Origin: a bacterium CG_4_9_14_3_um_filter_65_15
Lineage (GTDB): Bacteria; Krumholzibacteriota; Krumholzibacteriia; LZORAL124-64-63
Assembly (NCBI GenBank): GCA_002790835.1
Contig: PFVX01000026.1
Location: 1-52,732 of the forward strand
DNA: 52,732 nucleotides
Reading direction: 5' to 3'
Shown: positions 20,759-35,707 of the stretch, piece by piece
How positions within the stretch are numbered: position 1 is the stretch's first letter
How the letters are laid out: every line of letters starts with the position of its first letter
Program-made: the position numbers and the translations under genes
The notes under the pieces: model-generated
The model's input: the letters and a program-made list of their open reading frames with translations, nothing else
Database searches by the model: none
Told to the model about the DNA's origin: nothing

Positions 20759-23269
20759 GTGCGCTTGTCCGTTGCCCATGTCCGTGGAGTGACGATCGGC
20801 CTGGCCGCTCTGGCCGTGGCCCTGATCGGCACCCTTCCCGCCAGCGGATCCGGGGATACCCCTGATGGCCTCGTGTCGCCCCTGTTGCAGGCGGCGATGG
20901 ACCATCCCCTGGATCTGGGTTTGGCGGCCGACGAGCCGTTGACCGTGTGGGTGTATTTTCGCGACAAGGGCGTGGCCAAGAGCGGCCTGGACGCCGCCGT
21001 GCGCCGGGCCGAGGAGAAGTTGAGCCCACGCACCCTCGCCCGCCGTCGCCGGGCCATGGCCCCGGATCGACCGGTGGTCGACGGCCGGGACCTCCCGGTG
21101 GCCTCGGCTTACCTGGGCGCGGTGGAGGAGGTGGGCGGCCGGCTGCGGCACACCAGTCGTTGGCTCAACGCGGCCAGCTTCAGGCTGCGGGCCACGGACG
21201 TCGCGCGCGTCTCGACCTTGCCCATGGTGGAGCGGGTGGATCTGGTGCGGCGGTTCCGGAATCCCCTGACTCCAAAGATGCAACCTGCCTCCCGGTTGGC
21301 CAGTGACGGCGTCGACAAGGCGGCCCAGTGGACCCTGGATTACGGCCTGAATCTTTCCCCGTTGCAGCAGGTCCAGGTGCCCGCTGTGCACGAGATGGGC
21401 GTGACCGGTCGCGGTATCGTGGTGGGCATGCTGGACACGGGATTCCGCACCACCCATGAGGCCCTGGCCGGAGTGACGGTGCTGGACGCCTACGATTTCG
21501 TGGGCAACGACTCCATCGTGGGCTACCAGGCGGGTGACGCCACCTCGGCGATCAACCACGGCACCATGACCCTTTCGACCCTGGCCGGTTACATGCCCGG
21601 GAGACTCATCTCGCCGGCCTACGGCGTATCGGTGCTGCTTGCGCGCACCGAAGATGTCTCCCAGGAGGTTCCCGCCGAGGAGGACAACTGGGTGGCCGGC
21701 CTGGAGTGGGCCGAGGCCCGGGGCGCGGACATCATCTCGTCCTCGCTGGGCTACATCGATTGGTACACCTTCGCCGACCTGGACGGGAACACGGCCGTGA
21801 CCACCATCGCCGCCGACCTGGCCGCGGGCCGAGGACTCGTGGTGGTCAACAGCGCCGGCAACAACCGGGTCTCCACCAACTCGCTCATCGCCCCGGCCGA
21901 CGCCGACAGCGTGATCACCGTGGGCGCGGTGGATCTGTCCGGCACCTACACCTCCTTTTCCTCGCCGGGGCCGACGGCCGACGGCCGCATCAAACCCGAC
22001 GTCATGGCCTTGGGGCTCGGCAACCCCGTGGCCAACCCCACCGATGATCACGGCTACGGCTTCGTCAACGGGACCTCATTCAGTTGCCCGCTGACCGCCG
22101 GGGTGGCGGCTCTGATGTTGTCGCGTGTGCCGGGGTTGACACCCCTGCAGGTGCTCGAGGCGTTGCGCGAGACCGCCTCGCAGGCGGGTGCGCCGGATAA
22201 CAACTACGGCTGGGGCGTGGTGGATGCCCTGGCGGCGGTGACCTATTTCGGCCCGATGTTCCAGACGTCTCCCCTGGGTGACACCGACGACACTTTTGGA
22301 CCCTATCCGGTGACGGCTGTGGTCACCGACCGGGTCGGGGTCGACCCGGCCAGCGTCGTGCTGAATTATCGTGTCAACGAGGGGAGCTGGAACGCCCTGG
22401 CCATGTCCCCGACCGGTAACAGTGATGAGTTCGGCGCCGCCATTCCGGGTCAGGGCCTGGGGTCGACCATCGAGTACTCCGTCACCGCCACCGGCACCAA
22501 CGGTTTCACCACCACCTGGCCGGCCTACGGCACGGATCTTCCCCGGCGGTTCCAGGTCACCACCATCGTGAACCTGCCGGTCTCCGTCGTACCGGACCTG
22601 GTCATCCCCATGGATGATCCCGCGGGCGTTTCCAGCGTGATCACCCTGTCGGGCGCCCAGTCCGGAATCGTCGTGGATGTCTCGGTGGACGTGCACATCA
22701 CCCATCCGGACATCGGCGAACTGACCCTGCTGCTGACCAGCCCCTCGGGAACCGAGGTGACCCTGCATCTGCGGACCGACGCAGGCACGGTCGACCTGGT
22801 GGGCAACTATCCCCAGAGCTTGACCGTGGACGGGCCGGGCAGCCTGTCCTGGTTCCACGACGAGACCAGCATCGGACCCTGGACCCTGACCGCCATCGAC
22901 GCCCTGCCGGGCAGTAACGGGGTGATCGACAGCTGGGGTCTGAATTTCGTGCTCAAGGATTTCGTGTCCGCCGGCGGTCGCGCTCCCGCCGCCATGGCCG
23001 TGCTGCACCCCAACAGCCCCAATCCCTTCAACCCCAAGACGAGGATTGCCTTCGACCTTGCGGTTGCCTGCCGGACGCAGCTTTCCATTTTCGATCTGCG
23101 TGGTATGGTTGTGCGCAGGTTGCTGGGTGAAGTCCTGGACGCCGGCCCGCACAGCGTGGTCTGGGACGGCCGGGACGGTTCCGGCCGCGAGGTGGGCAGC
23201 GGCGTCTATCTGTACCTGCTCGAGACGCCATTCGAGATCCGGGAACGCAAGATGCTCCTGGTGCGCTGA
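20759..23269 (+). CDS. Secreted S8 subtilisin-like peptidase with P-domain and sorting-like tail
   Basis: This is an extracellular serine protease of about 836 aa. A signal peptide (LAALAVALIGTLPASGSG) and a pro-region of about 190 residues precede the catalytic domain with D226 (GMLDTGF), H267 (NHGTM), the oxyanion Asn (NSAGNN) and S440 (GTSFS). It is followed by a linker, a proprotein-convertase P-type domain (THPDIGELTLLLTSPSGTEVTLH) and an FlgD-like C-terminal sorting domain (NPFNPKTRIAFDL...GVYLYLLE...MLLVR). GTG 20759 has GGAG nine nt upstream; ATG 20741 is the alternative, without a ribosome site. RadA follows after 41 nt. Confidence 0.9.
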   Translation: MRLSVAHVRGVTIGLAALAVALIGTLPASGSGDTPDGLVSPLLQAAMDHPLDLGLAADEPLTVWVYFRDKGVAKSGLDAAVRRAEEKLSPRTLARRRRAMAPDRPVVDGRDLPVASAYLGAVEEVGGRLRHTSRWLNAASFRLRATDVARVSTLPMVERVDLVRRFRNPLTPKMQPASRLASDGVDKAAQWTLDYGLNLSPLQQVQVPAVHEMGVTGRGIVVGMLDTGFRTTHEALAGVTVLDAYDFVGNDSIVGYQAGDATSAINHGTMTLSTLAGYMPGRLISPAYGVSVLLARTEDVSQEVPAEEDNWVAGLEWAEARGADIISSSLGYIDWYTFADLDGNTAVTTIAADLAAGRGLVVVNSAGNNRVSTNSLIAPADADSVITVGAVDLSGTYTSFSSPGPTADGRIKPDVMALGLGNPVANPTDDHGYGFVNGTSFSCPLTAGVAALMLSRVPGLTPLQVLEALRETASQAGAPDNNYGWGVVDALAAVTYFGPMFQTSPLGDTDDTFGPYPVTAVVTDRVGVDPASVVLNYRVNEGSWNALAMSPTGNSDEFGAAIPGQGLGSTIEYSVTATGTNGFTTTWPAYGTDLPRRFQVTTIVNLPVSVVPDLVIPMDDPAGVSSVITLSGAQSGIVVDVSVDVHITHPDIGELTLLLTSPSGTEVTLHLRTDAGTVDLVGNYPQSLTVDGPGSLSWFHDETSIGPWTLTAIDALPGSNGVIDSWGLNFVLKDFVSAGGRAPAAMAVLHPNSPNPFNPKTRIAFDLAVACRTQLSIFDLRGMVVRRLLGEVLDAGPHSVVWDGRDGSGREVGSGVYLYLLETPFEIRERKMLLVR

Positions 23270-25567: not shown

Positions 25568-25611
25568 CGGTCCGTTCCCTCTTTAATCGTGATTCTTCCG
25601 CTATCCTTTTG

Positions 25612-25620
25612 TGGTATCAT
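25612..25620 (+). promoter_or_regulatory. Extended -10 promoter of the lipoprotein subtilase gene
   Basis: TGGTATCAT lies 45 nt before the start codon. The surrounding TTTTGTGGTATxATC is identical to the box at 20672-20686 apart from one base, suggesting a shared promoter type for these secreted peptidases. Confidence 0.5.
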
Positions 25621-25665
25621 CCTGCTTTGGTCGCCACTTCATCGCCTGCACCGGAGGAATCGCGC

Positions 25666-27405
25666 ATGTCGTCCCGAAACCGAGGAATTTTCCTGATTCT
25701 GAGCAGTCTCTTCACCTTGGCCTTGGCCGGGTGTTCCAGCGATAGCCCCACCAATCCGCTGACGGCCCCCGGGATTGATGCCGTTTCGCGGGCGGCGGAC
25801 AAGGGCCTGCCCCCCGGGGCCGGTGAGGTGTTGCCCGGGCGTTACATCGTGCGGCTGGAACCGGGCAAGAGACCGGTCGCGGCCCTGGCGACGGATCTGG
25901 CCAAGCGCAACGGCTTTGCCGTCCAACACCTGTACAGTTCCGCGCTGCGCGGATTTTCCGCCGGGATGACCGCCGAACAAGCCGCCGCGTTGGCCGCCGA
26001 AAACGGGGTCTTGGGCGTGGAACCGGACCGGCCCATGCAGGCGTTCGCCGAGTTTCTGCCCACGGGTGTGGATCGGGAGGACGTGGAGCGGAACCCGTAT
26101 TCCGGCATCGACGGGGTTTCGGCGGCGGTTGACGTGGACATCGCCATCATCGATACGGGCATCGATCCGGATCACCCCGATCTGAACGTGGTCGGCGGCG
26201 TGAAACTGTTGGGCGGCACCAGTGATCCCGACTTCCGCGACGGCTTCGGCCACGGCACCCACTGCGCCGGCATCGCCGCAGCGCGCAACGACGGCCAGGG
26301 CGTGGTGGGCGTGGCGCCCGGCGCCCGGCTGTGGGCCGTCAAGGTCCTCAACGACAGCGGCAGCGGCAGCATGTCCGACATCATCGCGGGGGTCGACTGG
26401 GTTGCCGCCCGCGCCGATGAGATCGAGGTCATCAACATGAGCCTGGGCGGGTTCGGCTGGTCCGATGCCCTGCGCAGTGCCATCCAGGGCTGCGTGGGCC
26501 AGGGCGTTGTGGTGGCCGTGGCGGCCGGCAACTACGGCATGGACGTGTACGGCTTCGACCGGACCATCGGCAACTGGGATGATCAGGTGCCGGCGGCCAT
26601 CCCCGAGGCCATGACCGTCAGCGCGTTGGCCGACGGCGACGGTCTGCCCGGCGGTCTGGGCGCGGCGACTTCCTCCGGGGCCGATGATTCCTTTGCCTCG
26701 TTCTCCAACACATCCCACAACGTCGTGGCGGGCAACCCGGTGAACTCGCCGGGGGCGGCCATCGACCTGATGCTGCCGGGCGTGGACATCATCTCCTCGG
26801 TGCCCGGAGGCGGCTACGCGGCGCTGTCGGGTACCAGCATGGCCTCGCCCCACGCGGCGGGCCTGGCAGCCCTGTATATCGCCCAACACGGCCGGGCCGC
26901 CGACGCGGCGGGGGTGTACGCCATCCGGCAGGCCCTGATCGACCAGGGCGCGCCTCAGAACAGCCCCTGGGGTCTGGCCGCCGGCGGCGACCGCGACGGG
27001 AACATCGAGCCCATCGGCATGGCGGCGCCCCTGGCCGCGTTCTCGGATCTCGGTTTCCGGTCTTTCCGCGCCCAGGCCAGCATCCACCCCGGTGACACCG
27101 TTCACGCCAAGGTCGCCCTGGGCAATCGCGGCACCAGCGCCGTGACCGGGCCGGTGACCCTGCGCATGTTCGAATCCGGCTCGGGGACAGAGGTGACCAC
27201 GCCGCGGGTGTTGTCCTCGGGATTGGCCGTGGGCCAGTCCATCACCAGCGCGCCGCACATTCGCACCCCGGCCGACCTGGCGCCGGGGACCTACACCCTG
27301 GTGGTGCAGCACGATCTGGGCGACGACGTTGGTTTCAACGACAGCATGTCCCTGGAAATCGAGGTTCTGCCGCCGGCTATGCGGCGGCCCGTGGTCCAGG
27401 ACTGA
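25666..27405 (+). CDS. S8 subtilisin-like peptidase lipoprotein
   Basis: This is a predicted membrane-anchored serine protease of 579 aa. The N-terminus is a lipoprotein signal peptide with lipobox LALAGC. An inhibitor-I9-type propeptide (RYIVRLEPGKRPVAALATDLAKRNGF...GVLGVEPDRPMQAF) follows, then the catalytic domain with D163 (AIIDTGID), H196 (GHGTHCAG), the Asn in AAGN and S391 (SGTSMASPHAAG). A C-terminal CARDB-like beta domain (VHAKVALGNRGTSAVTGPVTL) ends the protein; it has no sorting domain, unlike the other subtilase. The start ATG has GGAGGA upstream. It converges on the selenoprotein candidate. Confidence 0.92.
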   Translation: MSSRNRGIFLILSSLFTLALAGCSSDSPTNPLTAPGIDAVSRAADKGLPPGAGEVLPGRYIVRLEPGKRPVAALATDLAKRNGFAVQHLYSSALRGFSAGMTAEQAAALAAENGVLGVEPDRPMQAFAEFLPTGVDREDVERNPYSGIDGVSAAVDVDIAIIDTGIDPDHPDLNVVGGVKLLGGTSDPDFRDGFGHGTHCAGIAAARNDGQGVVGVAPGARLWAVKVLNDSGSGSMSDIIAGVDWVAARADEIEVINMSLGGFGWSDALRSAIQGCVGQGVVVAVAAGNYGMDVYGFDRTIGNWDDQVPAAIPEAMTVSALADGDGLPGGLGAATSSGADDSFASFSNTSHNVVAGNPVNSPGAAIDLMLPGVDIISSVPGGGYAALSGTSMASPHAAGLAALYIAQHGRAADAAGVYAIRQALIDQGAPQNSPWGLAAGGDRDGNIEPIGMAAPLAAFSDLGFRSFRAQASIHPGDTVHAKVALGNRGTSAVTGPVTLRMFESGSGTEVTTPRVLSSGLAVGQSITSAPHIRTPADLAPGTYTLVVQHDLGDDVGFNDSMSLEIEVLPPAMRRPVVQD

Positions 27406-27431: not shown

Positions 27432-28250
27432 TCACTTCACCAAGGTCAGGGTGCGGATCCGGTCGGTGGCGCCGGCGTGCAGCTGCACAAAATATATCCC
27501 GCTGGGTTGACGTCGCCCGGCGTTGTCGGTCCCGTCCCAGGTGACTTCGTACCGCCGCCCGGGCTGATGGAAGCGGTCGTCAATCAACGTGGACACGATG
27601 CGTCCCCTGAGATCCAGGATCTGCAGGGTCACGGGGATGTCGCCGTCTCCCAAGGCCAGCTCGAAGGGAATGCGGGTCAGTGGATTGAAGGGGTTGGGAT
27701 AATTCGGCAGAAGCAGATTTTCGCCGAAGGGAATCACCGGAGTCGGTGAGACAAGACTTTCGAGTCCCTGGTCGATGGCATCACGGATGGCCGCGTCGTT
27801 GTAGTTGCCGCGCCAGATGACGATCCCATCGCCCCCGATGACGAACAGGTAGTCGTAGGTGCAGGCGTAAGCGGCCGGAATCCCGGCGGCGGAGCCTTTC
27901 ATGAGGATGGGGTAGGTCACTCCGGAGGCGCTGGCGAAGACCTGGACCTGGGCCTGATTGCCGTCCCACAGATCGATGGCCAGGGCTTGGAAGGGTTGGT
28001 CGCCGTAGGTCTGGTTGATGGCCTCCGTACCGGAGCCGAAGCCGATGCAGGAGCTTCAGCCATATCCAACCATGAAAAGCAACACCACTTCACCATGGTG
28101 TTGGCTCAGGGTATGAATGGGCCCGGCGGGAAATTCCTGCAGGGCGAAATCCGCAGCCGGGGTGCCGGGATCCCCGGGCCCTGCGAAGGCGATTGCAGCG
28201 TTGGCCGCCAAGCAGGCGACCAGGAGCAGGCGCAATAATAGTCTCGGCAT
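27432..28250 (-). CDS. Candidate selenoprotein: secreted thioredoxin-fold protein with in-frame TGA (UxxC) and sorting-like tail
   Basis: A single minus-strand frame of 273 codons (28250 to 27432) contains one in-frame TGA at 28056-28058 and is otherwise open. It encodes a signal peptide (MPRLLLRLLLVACLAANAAIAFA), then a redoxin domain: TPAADFALQEF, GEVVLLFMVGYG, the TGA, SSCIGFGSGTEAINQ, YPILMKGSAAGIPAAY and VIGGDGIVIWRG. It ends in an FlgD-like sorting domain (YPNPFNPLTRIPFEL...GIYFVQL...LTLVK). The TGA is codon 65 and C68 follows three codons later, so the motif reads UxxC at the thioredoxin CxxC position. A bSECIS-like hairpin lies 18 nt downstream. An ordinary gene caller would split it into a 64-aa and a 162-aa ORF. 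A nonsense mutation is the alternative. Confidence 0.75.
28020..28058 (-). other. bSECIS-like hairpin after the in-frame TGA
   Basis: Reading the minus strand, the TGA (28058-28056) is followed by 18 nt and then a stem GGCTCCG (28037-28031) with CGGAG-G-CC (28027-28020, one bulged G) and a 3-nt loop GTA (28030-28028). The loop begins 25 nt after the TGA and its first base is G. Both features fit the known bacterial SECIS rules (16-37 nt to the apical loop, a G in its first two bases, a 4-16 bp upper stem). Confidence 0.6.
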
Positions 28251-28317
28251 TGCGATTCTCTTCTCTCTTCAGGCCGGCCGCGGCCGGGCCGCTGCCCTGT
28301 CCCCATACCGTAATTTA

Positions 28318-28410: not shown

Positions 28411-29100
28411 ATGATTGTCAACGACCACAGCCGGGACCATGTGAGGTTCCTCCAGTTGCACCTGGGGGGGGACCGCAATTTCCAGTACCTGATCGGCGAT
28501 GCGCGCACGGGGGATGCGGCCGCGGTGGATCCGGGGTTCGGCGCGGGGACCTTCGCCGCCATCGCCCAGGACCAGGGATTGTCCATCAAGACCATCCTGA
28601 TCACCCACGGCCATTGCGATCACACCGGCGAGGCGGCCGCCCTGGCGGAGCTCACCGGAGCGGAAATATTCGCCGGGAATCCCGAGGTGGTCGCCGGGGC
28701 CCAGCCCCTGGTCGATGATCAACTCGTGCGGGTGGGCGGTCTGGTCGTGCGGGCCTTGGCCACCCCCGGACACGCTCCCGACCATTTCTGCTTCCTTTAC
28801 GAGGACTTCCTGGTGACGGGGGATCTGCTGTTCTGTGGCAAGGTCGGGGGGACCGGGTCCTTTTTTCCCGGCTCCAGCTCCCAGGAGGAGTGGGATTCCC
28901 TGCAGCGGATCCTCTTGTTCTCGCCGGAAACCCGGGTTTACCCCGGCCATGACTACTACGGGGGACCGGGGGAGATGAAAGTGTCAACCCTGGGTCACGA
29001 GCGGGACCACAACCCCTTCCTCAACGGTACGGGATTCGCGGCGTTCTGCGCCTTGAAGGAAAACTGGGCCACCTTCAAACAGGAAAATGGTATCCGTTGA
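28411..29100 (+). CDS. Metallo-beta-lactamase-fold hydrolase (glyoxalase II-like)
   Basis: This 229-aa metallohydrolase has the full metal set: THGHCDHTG (HxHxDH), ATPGHAPDH, GDLLFCGKVG and YPGHDYYG. The order and the C-terminal region resemble hydroxyacylglutathione hydrolases and persulfide dioxygenase-like proteins; the substrate is uncertain. The ATG at 28411 has GGGAGG upstream. Its stop codon overlaps the TTG start of the phosphatase gene by 4 nt (TTGA), which indicates translational coupling. Confidence 0.88.
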   Translation: MIVNDHSRDHVRFLQLHLGGDRNFQYLIGDARTGDAAAVDPGFGAGTFAAIAQDQGLSIKTILITHGHCDHTGEAAALAELTGAEIFAGNPEVVAGAQPLVDDQLVRVGGLVVRALATPGHAPDHFCFLYEDFLVTGDLLFCGKVGGTGSFFPGSSSQEEWDSLQRILLFSPETRVYPGHDYYGGPGEMKVSTLGHERDHNPFLNGTGFAAFCALKENWATFKQENGIR

Positions 29101-35132: not shown

Positions 35133-35707
35133 GGACCTCCCGACTTCACCAGCTTTACCCGTCCCGTCCGGACGGTCTTTCCGGCCGTCAGGCGGGTGAA
35201 ATACACCCCGGACTCCACCGCGCGTCCCTGATCATCCGTTCCATCCCAGGCGACCTTGTGGGTTCGGGCCGCGAATTGCCCCTCGGCCAGGGTGCGCACT
35301 TTGATCCCGGCGACGTTGTAGACGCTCAGGGTTCCGGTGGTCGGTGAGGGGGCCGTGAACTCGATCGTCGTCGTTCCGTTGAGCGGGTTCGGATAGGCCG
35401 GGTGCAGGATGATTCCGGGTGCCGGTGCGCCCTCACCGGGTGAGGTCACCCCCGACGGCGCCGACCGCGTGAACGAGTCGATGACCTCGCCGGTGGGCGT
35501 CAGGGCGGTGAGGGTCAGCGAGGTGCCGTCGATTTCCACCTTGCAGTAGTGGTTCGCCTGGGCCGTCGCCAACACGTACGGATAGCCGGGGTCGGGGGCA
35601 TCGAGGCCCGCATGCGGGTGCAGATCCTGGGCACCGAGCCTCAGGGATCGGTCGGCGACCTGATGATCCCCTCTCCCCGGTCGCCGGCAGTTCCCTGGTG
35701 GTCGCCC
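35063..35707 (-). pseudogene. Remnant of a secreted phosphatase-like gene with sorting-like tail
   Basis: The frame has no start codon and is open from just after the MATE stop down to 35063. It reads GDHQVADRSLRLGAQDLHPHAG, then NHYCKVEIDGTSLTLTALTPTGEVIDSFT, which resembles the end of a purple-acid-phosphatase-like domain. An FlgD-like sorting domain follows (AYPNPLNGTTTIEFTAP...GVYFTRLTAGKTVRTGRVKLVK). After KLVK there is no stop: the frame runs on into the antisense of the TonB receptor. This suggests that both ends of the original gene are lost. It is in frame with the upstream MATE gene across its stop codon. Confidence 0.6.

Follow-up and report, generated by a model that had tools for sequence, protein, structure and literature searches.

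The question raised by this locus is whether an in-frame TGA codon in the gene for an exported redoxin is a stop or is read as selenocysteine (Sec), and what kind of enzyme the gene encodes. Direct reading of the minus strand of the window, the whole 52,732-nucleotide stretch analysed here, gives a frame from 28250 to 27432 with an ATG start, 272 sense codons, a terminal TGA, and a single internal TGA (28058-28056). The latter corresponds to residue 65 (context GEVVLLFMVGYG-U-SSC) and yields the motif U65-S-S-C68, so that the coordinates and the lone TGA at the first redox position given in an earlier note on this DNA proved exact on re-reading (Table 1). We consider it very probable that the gene encodes a selenoprotein with Sec65. 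This claim is computational, drawing on the selenocysteine machinery, the conserved TGA, a Cys counterpart, the predicted fold, and the type IX secretion components, from which we infer Sec insertion itself. A search of a plasmid collection gave no match.

Table 1. Features of the redoxin locus and its neighbours, in order of position in the window.
Feature	Position	Strand	Basis
Subtilisin-like S8 protease	25609..27405	+	
Probable selenoprotein gene: signal peptide, Sec-redoxin domain, and type IX sorting tail; 272 residues, TGA stop	27432..28250	-	
C-terminal sorting domain (FlgD_ig / Por_Secre_tail-like), putative type IX secretion signal	27435..27713	-	
Redoxin (AhpC/TSA, ResA/TlpA-like) domain, residues 28-167	27750..28169	-	AlphaFold model, pLDDT 94
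Candidate bacterial SECIS hairpin GGCUCC-GGUAC-GGAGGCC, loop G ~25 nt after UGA	28020..28037	-	
Putative resolving Cys68 of UxxC, codon TGC (TGA in homologue L053)	28047..28049	-	
In-frame TGA, putatively selenocysteine, residue 65	28056..28058	-	Reading and homologue alignment
Probable signal peptide MPRLLLRLLLVACLAANAAIAFA, inferred cleavage site	28182..28250	-	Sequence
Purine-rich, ribosome-binding-like stretch AGAGAAGAG, 7 nt 5' of ATG	about 28258-28266	-	Direct reading; function inferred
MBL-fold hydrolase (glyoxalase II / persulfide dioxygenase-like), divergent neighbour	28411..29100	+	

The AlphaFold model of the redoxin domain has DsbE and ResA as its top Foldseek matches, with 3kcm and ResA the best matches by sequence profile, and in the predicted structure U65 lies directly N-terminal to helix 66-82, placing the [C/U]xxC pair where the active-site helix begins. 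The prediction of a ResA/TlpA-like thioredoxin fold, with Sec leading into this helix, is of high confidence and agrees, at the level of the model, with the earlier description of UxxC in a thioredoxin fold. The cis-proline region described alongside it does not stand, as the ResA/TlpA cis-Pro position before the following strand is occupied by D in the window protein (YDYLFVI) and mostly by Asp in the family, with Pro in no member, and the conserved Pro114 (TYPILM) is a distinct residue. A cis-Pro is typical of thioredoxin-fold oxidoreductases. The window protein does not reach the curated family cut-offs, with a best NCBIfam score of 19.9 bits against 170, and a Pfam AhpC-TSA score of 21.3 against 26.

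The main activity of the protein is probably that of a disulfide oxidoreductase. It is also conceivable, if rather unlikely, that the selenoprotein serves mainly as a surface peroxidase of the peroxiredoxin/GPx-like kind, a reading with which the missing cis-Pro, the Pfam matches of the family (AhpC/TSA in all members, Redoxin in nearly all), and the lower-ranked Foldseek matches Bcp, GPX8, and AhpE are all compatible. Selenols, moreover, react fast with peroxides. However, the motif is GYGUxxC and the peroxiredoxin peroxidatic motif PxxxT/SxxC is not present, whilst ResA, DsbE, and TlpA-like proteins rank first among the matches by profile and by fold.

A protein search recovered full-length relatives at the levels of genus, family, and class, almost every one with a single TGA, the closest named relative being a 'Candidatus Krumholzibacteriia' MAG (L071). 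Matches of the full-length protein against genome contigs were drawn off by the sorting tail and were informative for the phylum only. A redoxin-domain profile (alignment A2) matched, at E < 1e-40, 36 proteins from 29 genomes, distinct from ordinary TlpA/Prx proteins. The in-frame TGA is found in 35 of these 36 members, and the 29 genomes are independent assemblies. Wherever members were aligned the TGA falls in the identical column, occupying every row of a 34-row alignment except that of the single Cys member (G042, L064), which carries a TGT codon in GYACAPC. The earlier proposal that homologues should carry Sec or Cys at position 65 is thus borne out, with one Cys and never Arg, Trp, or Gly, and related species have TGA there and not the sense codons TGC or TGG. 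C68 is invariant after the TGA position apart from L053 (G034:C164), where both redox codons are TGA (UWRU, a UxxU motif, about 399-410). As the Cys member pairs with a Sec member in the tree (support 100/99), Sec is most simply read as ancestral in the subfamily, with the Sec-to-Cys change having occurred inside a Sec family. In a comparison of four congeners, the third codon position is the most variable both 5' and 3' of the TGA, the pattern expected of a frame translated throughout. One homologue outside the class (G136, L180; L180:1441-2157) keeps GYGUGFC, and a dockerin-like C-terminus, assigned by eye, replaces the sorting tail.

The earlier note had named selA, selB, selC, and selD as the genes to look for, and all four were found in the source genome (3.39 Mb, 95% complete). 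A genome search revealed one tRNA-Sec with a TCA anticodon (69.6 bits, above the Rfam cut-off), together with matches to SelA (446 bits), SelD (361 bits), and SelB (308 bits, with a C-terminal match in the same frame). The co-occurrence of selA adds little as evidence, since nearly all of the class has selA. The SelD gene (G000:C8:31606-32523, L018) likewise contains a TGA, which falls in the active-site motif AGUAAK; the genome's SelD is a selenoprotein in its own right and an internal control for Sec decoding, and the genome therefore appears to decode UGA as Sec elsewhere. It is very improbable that the TGA of the redoxin gene is instead decoded as Trp or Cys, through an altered code or near-cognate read-through. 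Read-through of UGA as Trp is established in bacteria in general, and when selenium is scarce the Sec system may insert some Cys, but TGA serves as an ordinary stop in 5 of 7 genes checked in this genome, the redoxin gene included, the tRNA-Sec with its TCA anticodon is accompanied by the whole pathway, and alignment with other members shows Cys at this position and never Trp or Gly. We therefore reject an altered genetic code. Least credible of all is that the TGA is a real stop, left by a pseudogene or sequencing error, or separating a 64-residue exported peptide from a second protein begun at GTG 27920, for although a downstream 162-codon frame with a GTG start does exist and annotation under table 11 would split the gene at the TGA, the codon is kept across independent assemblies at a redox position where the sole exception has Cys, a break there would fall immediately N-terminal to the active-site helix bearing C68, and the position-3 variation points to selection on both sides, so that a pseudogene is rejected, as the earlier note had also judged.

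Sec insertion in bacteria also calls on a hairpin downstream of the UGA, for which a published model specifies a loop of 3-9 nt with a G in its first two bases, 16-37 nt from the UGA, and an energy of -7.5 kcal/mol or lower (PMC13188914). The window hairpin fits this model, with the loop G at 25 nt and an energy of -9.4 kcal/mol, and a hairpin with its loop G 16-37 nt from the UGA occurs in every TGA row with a full flank, at ~25 nt in most members and 17-21 nt in others. Against synonymous recodings the hairpin shows excess stability in 43 TGA rows (mean z -1.32) but not in 7 Cys rows (mean z -0.19), the rows being related and the mean no formal test. Paired changes in alignment A1 affect one stem position and the loop-closing pair, and the consensus structure, at -2.37 kcal/mol with 5 pairs (double changes in two of them), is weak. 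Taken alone, the hairpin in the window does not exceed its synonymous variants in stability (z +0.07), simple folding of 56 nt spanning the UGA and the sequence 3' of it does not reach significance (z -0.75), and an Rfam scan for a SECIS family returned a chance match only. Support for the candidate hairpin is accordingly moderate, and comes from the comparative view only.

The redoxin is probably a cargo of type IX secretion, with a predicted surface or extracellular location. The exported protein with an FlgD-like tail proposed previously agrees with the signal peptide-like N-terminus and with a tail pattern (NYPNPFNP...SGIYFVQL) that corresponds to a sorting domain, the Pfam scores of which lie below the curated cut-offs (FlgD_ig 25.8 against 27, Por_Secre_tail 17.1 against 27). 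The genome encodes homologues of the PorU sortase (473 bits) and of the translocon protein SprA (about 500 bits), and dozens of type IX-like sorting tails, two further examples lying within the window at 23009-23224 (+) and 35180-35401 (-).

The divergent MBL-fold hydrolase adjoins the selenoprotein gene in 12 genomes of 4 genera, which suggests a possible functional link through thiol, persulfide, or glyoxalase chemistry, with general conservation of gene order as the alternative. The S8 protease is probably unrelated to the selenoprotein gene, and a link was rejected, as this adjacency recurs in one other congener only. Several relatives (L047, L055, L058, L059, L061, L069, and L070) possess a second exported Sec-redoxin family, in which beta-propeller-like repeats are joined to a redoxin with FFANWUPVC and an FlgD-type tail. 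Members of this family are about 640-790 aa in most cases, and 18 of 18 close members have one TGA; the family was not found in the window's genome, where the best match is without TGA.

We propose that SelB, with Sec-tRNA, would insert selenocysteine at the UGA (28058-28056) under the direction of the hairpin starting ~20 nt downstream, and that the product would leave the cytoplasm by way of its Sec-type signal peptide and, through its C-terminal domain, be displayed on the surface or released by type IX secretion. The selenol of Sec65 would attack and the thiol of Cys68 would resolve in a selenenylsulfide cycle, by which the redoxin may reduce or exchange disulfides, and possibly reduce peroxides, outside the cytoplasm, its substrate and the direction of the reaction being presumed. 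The cycle would depend on an electron donor outside the cell, and this external electron source is a real difficulty and the weakest part of the catalytic model; no reductase partner was identified.

Selenoprotein families with UxxC are already known, among them the 'Prx-like thiol:disulfide oxidoreductase' (PF00578) and the 'Redoxin family protein' (PF08534), and the finding is consequently less exceptional than the earlier note implied (PMC13188914). Compared by description, the window subfamily shares with these the AhpC/TSA-redoxin domain and the UxxC redox pair, and differs in its signal peptide and type IX tail, its GYGUxxC motif, the lack of cis-Pro, and the near absence of Cys counterparts. 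ResA, TlpA, and DsbE (PDB 1st9, 3kcm, and 3gl3) resemble the predicted fold (TMt about 0.8-0.87, about 20% identity), also with a redox pair that starts the helix; unlike them, the window subfamily has Sec for the first Cys, mostly Asp for the cis-Pro, a type IX tail, and no membrane anchor. The NCBIfam selenoprotein model NF041054 ('ResA-like WAxxUGC motif') weakly matches 6 of 34 members (best 5e-7), whereas its motif differs and the window protein has no match at E 0.01; none of the NCBIfam selenoprotein models covers the window protein above cut-off. The C-terminal sorting domain, together with PorU and SprA in the genome, is as for other type IX cargo, the difference being that the cargo is a putative selenoprotein. 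In a literature search that had most subscription journals outside its range, we found no work linking selenoproteins with type IX secretion or with Krumholzibacteriota, the one paper that mentions both selenoproteins and type IX secretion being unrelated. What is new, then, is a Krumholzibacteriia subfamily in which nearly every member has Sec, which is predicted to be exported by type IX secretion and scores above none of the curated cut-offs, within a kind of redoxin already known.

It is about an even chance that the Krumholzibacteriia have a lineage-wide extracellular redox system, in which Sec-redoxins reach the surface via type IX secretion in at least two exported families (GYGUxxC and the propeller-fused FFANWUPVC), with Sec ancestral and dominant over Cys. 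This raises the questions of why selenium is spent on an extracellular enzyme, and what supplies its electrons. As standard annotation splits such genes, a nearly all-Sec selenoprotein family would be overlooked, and its recognition here would extend selenocysteine to the surface cargo of type IX secretion and to the Krumholzibacteriia.
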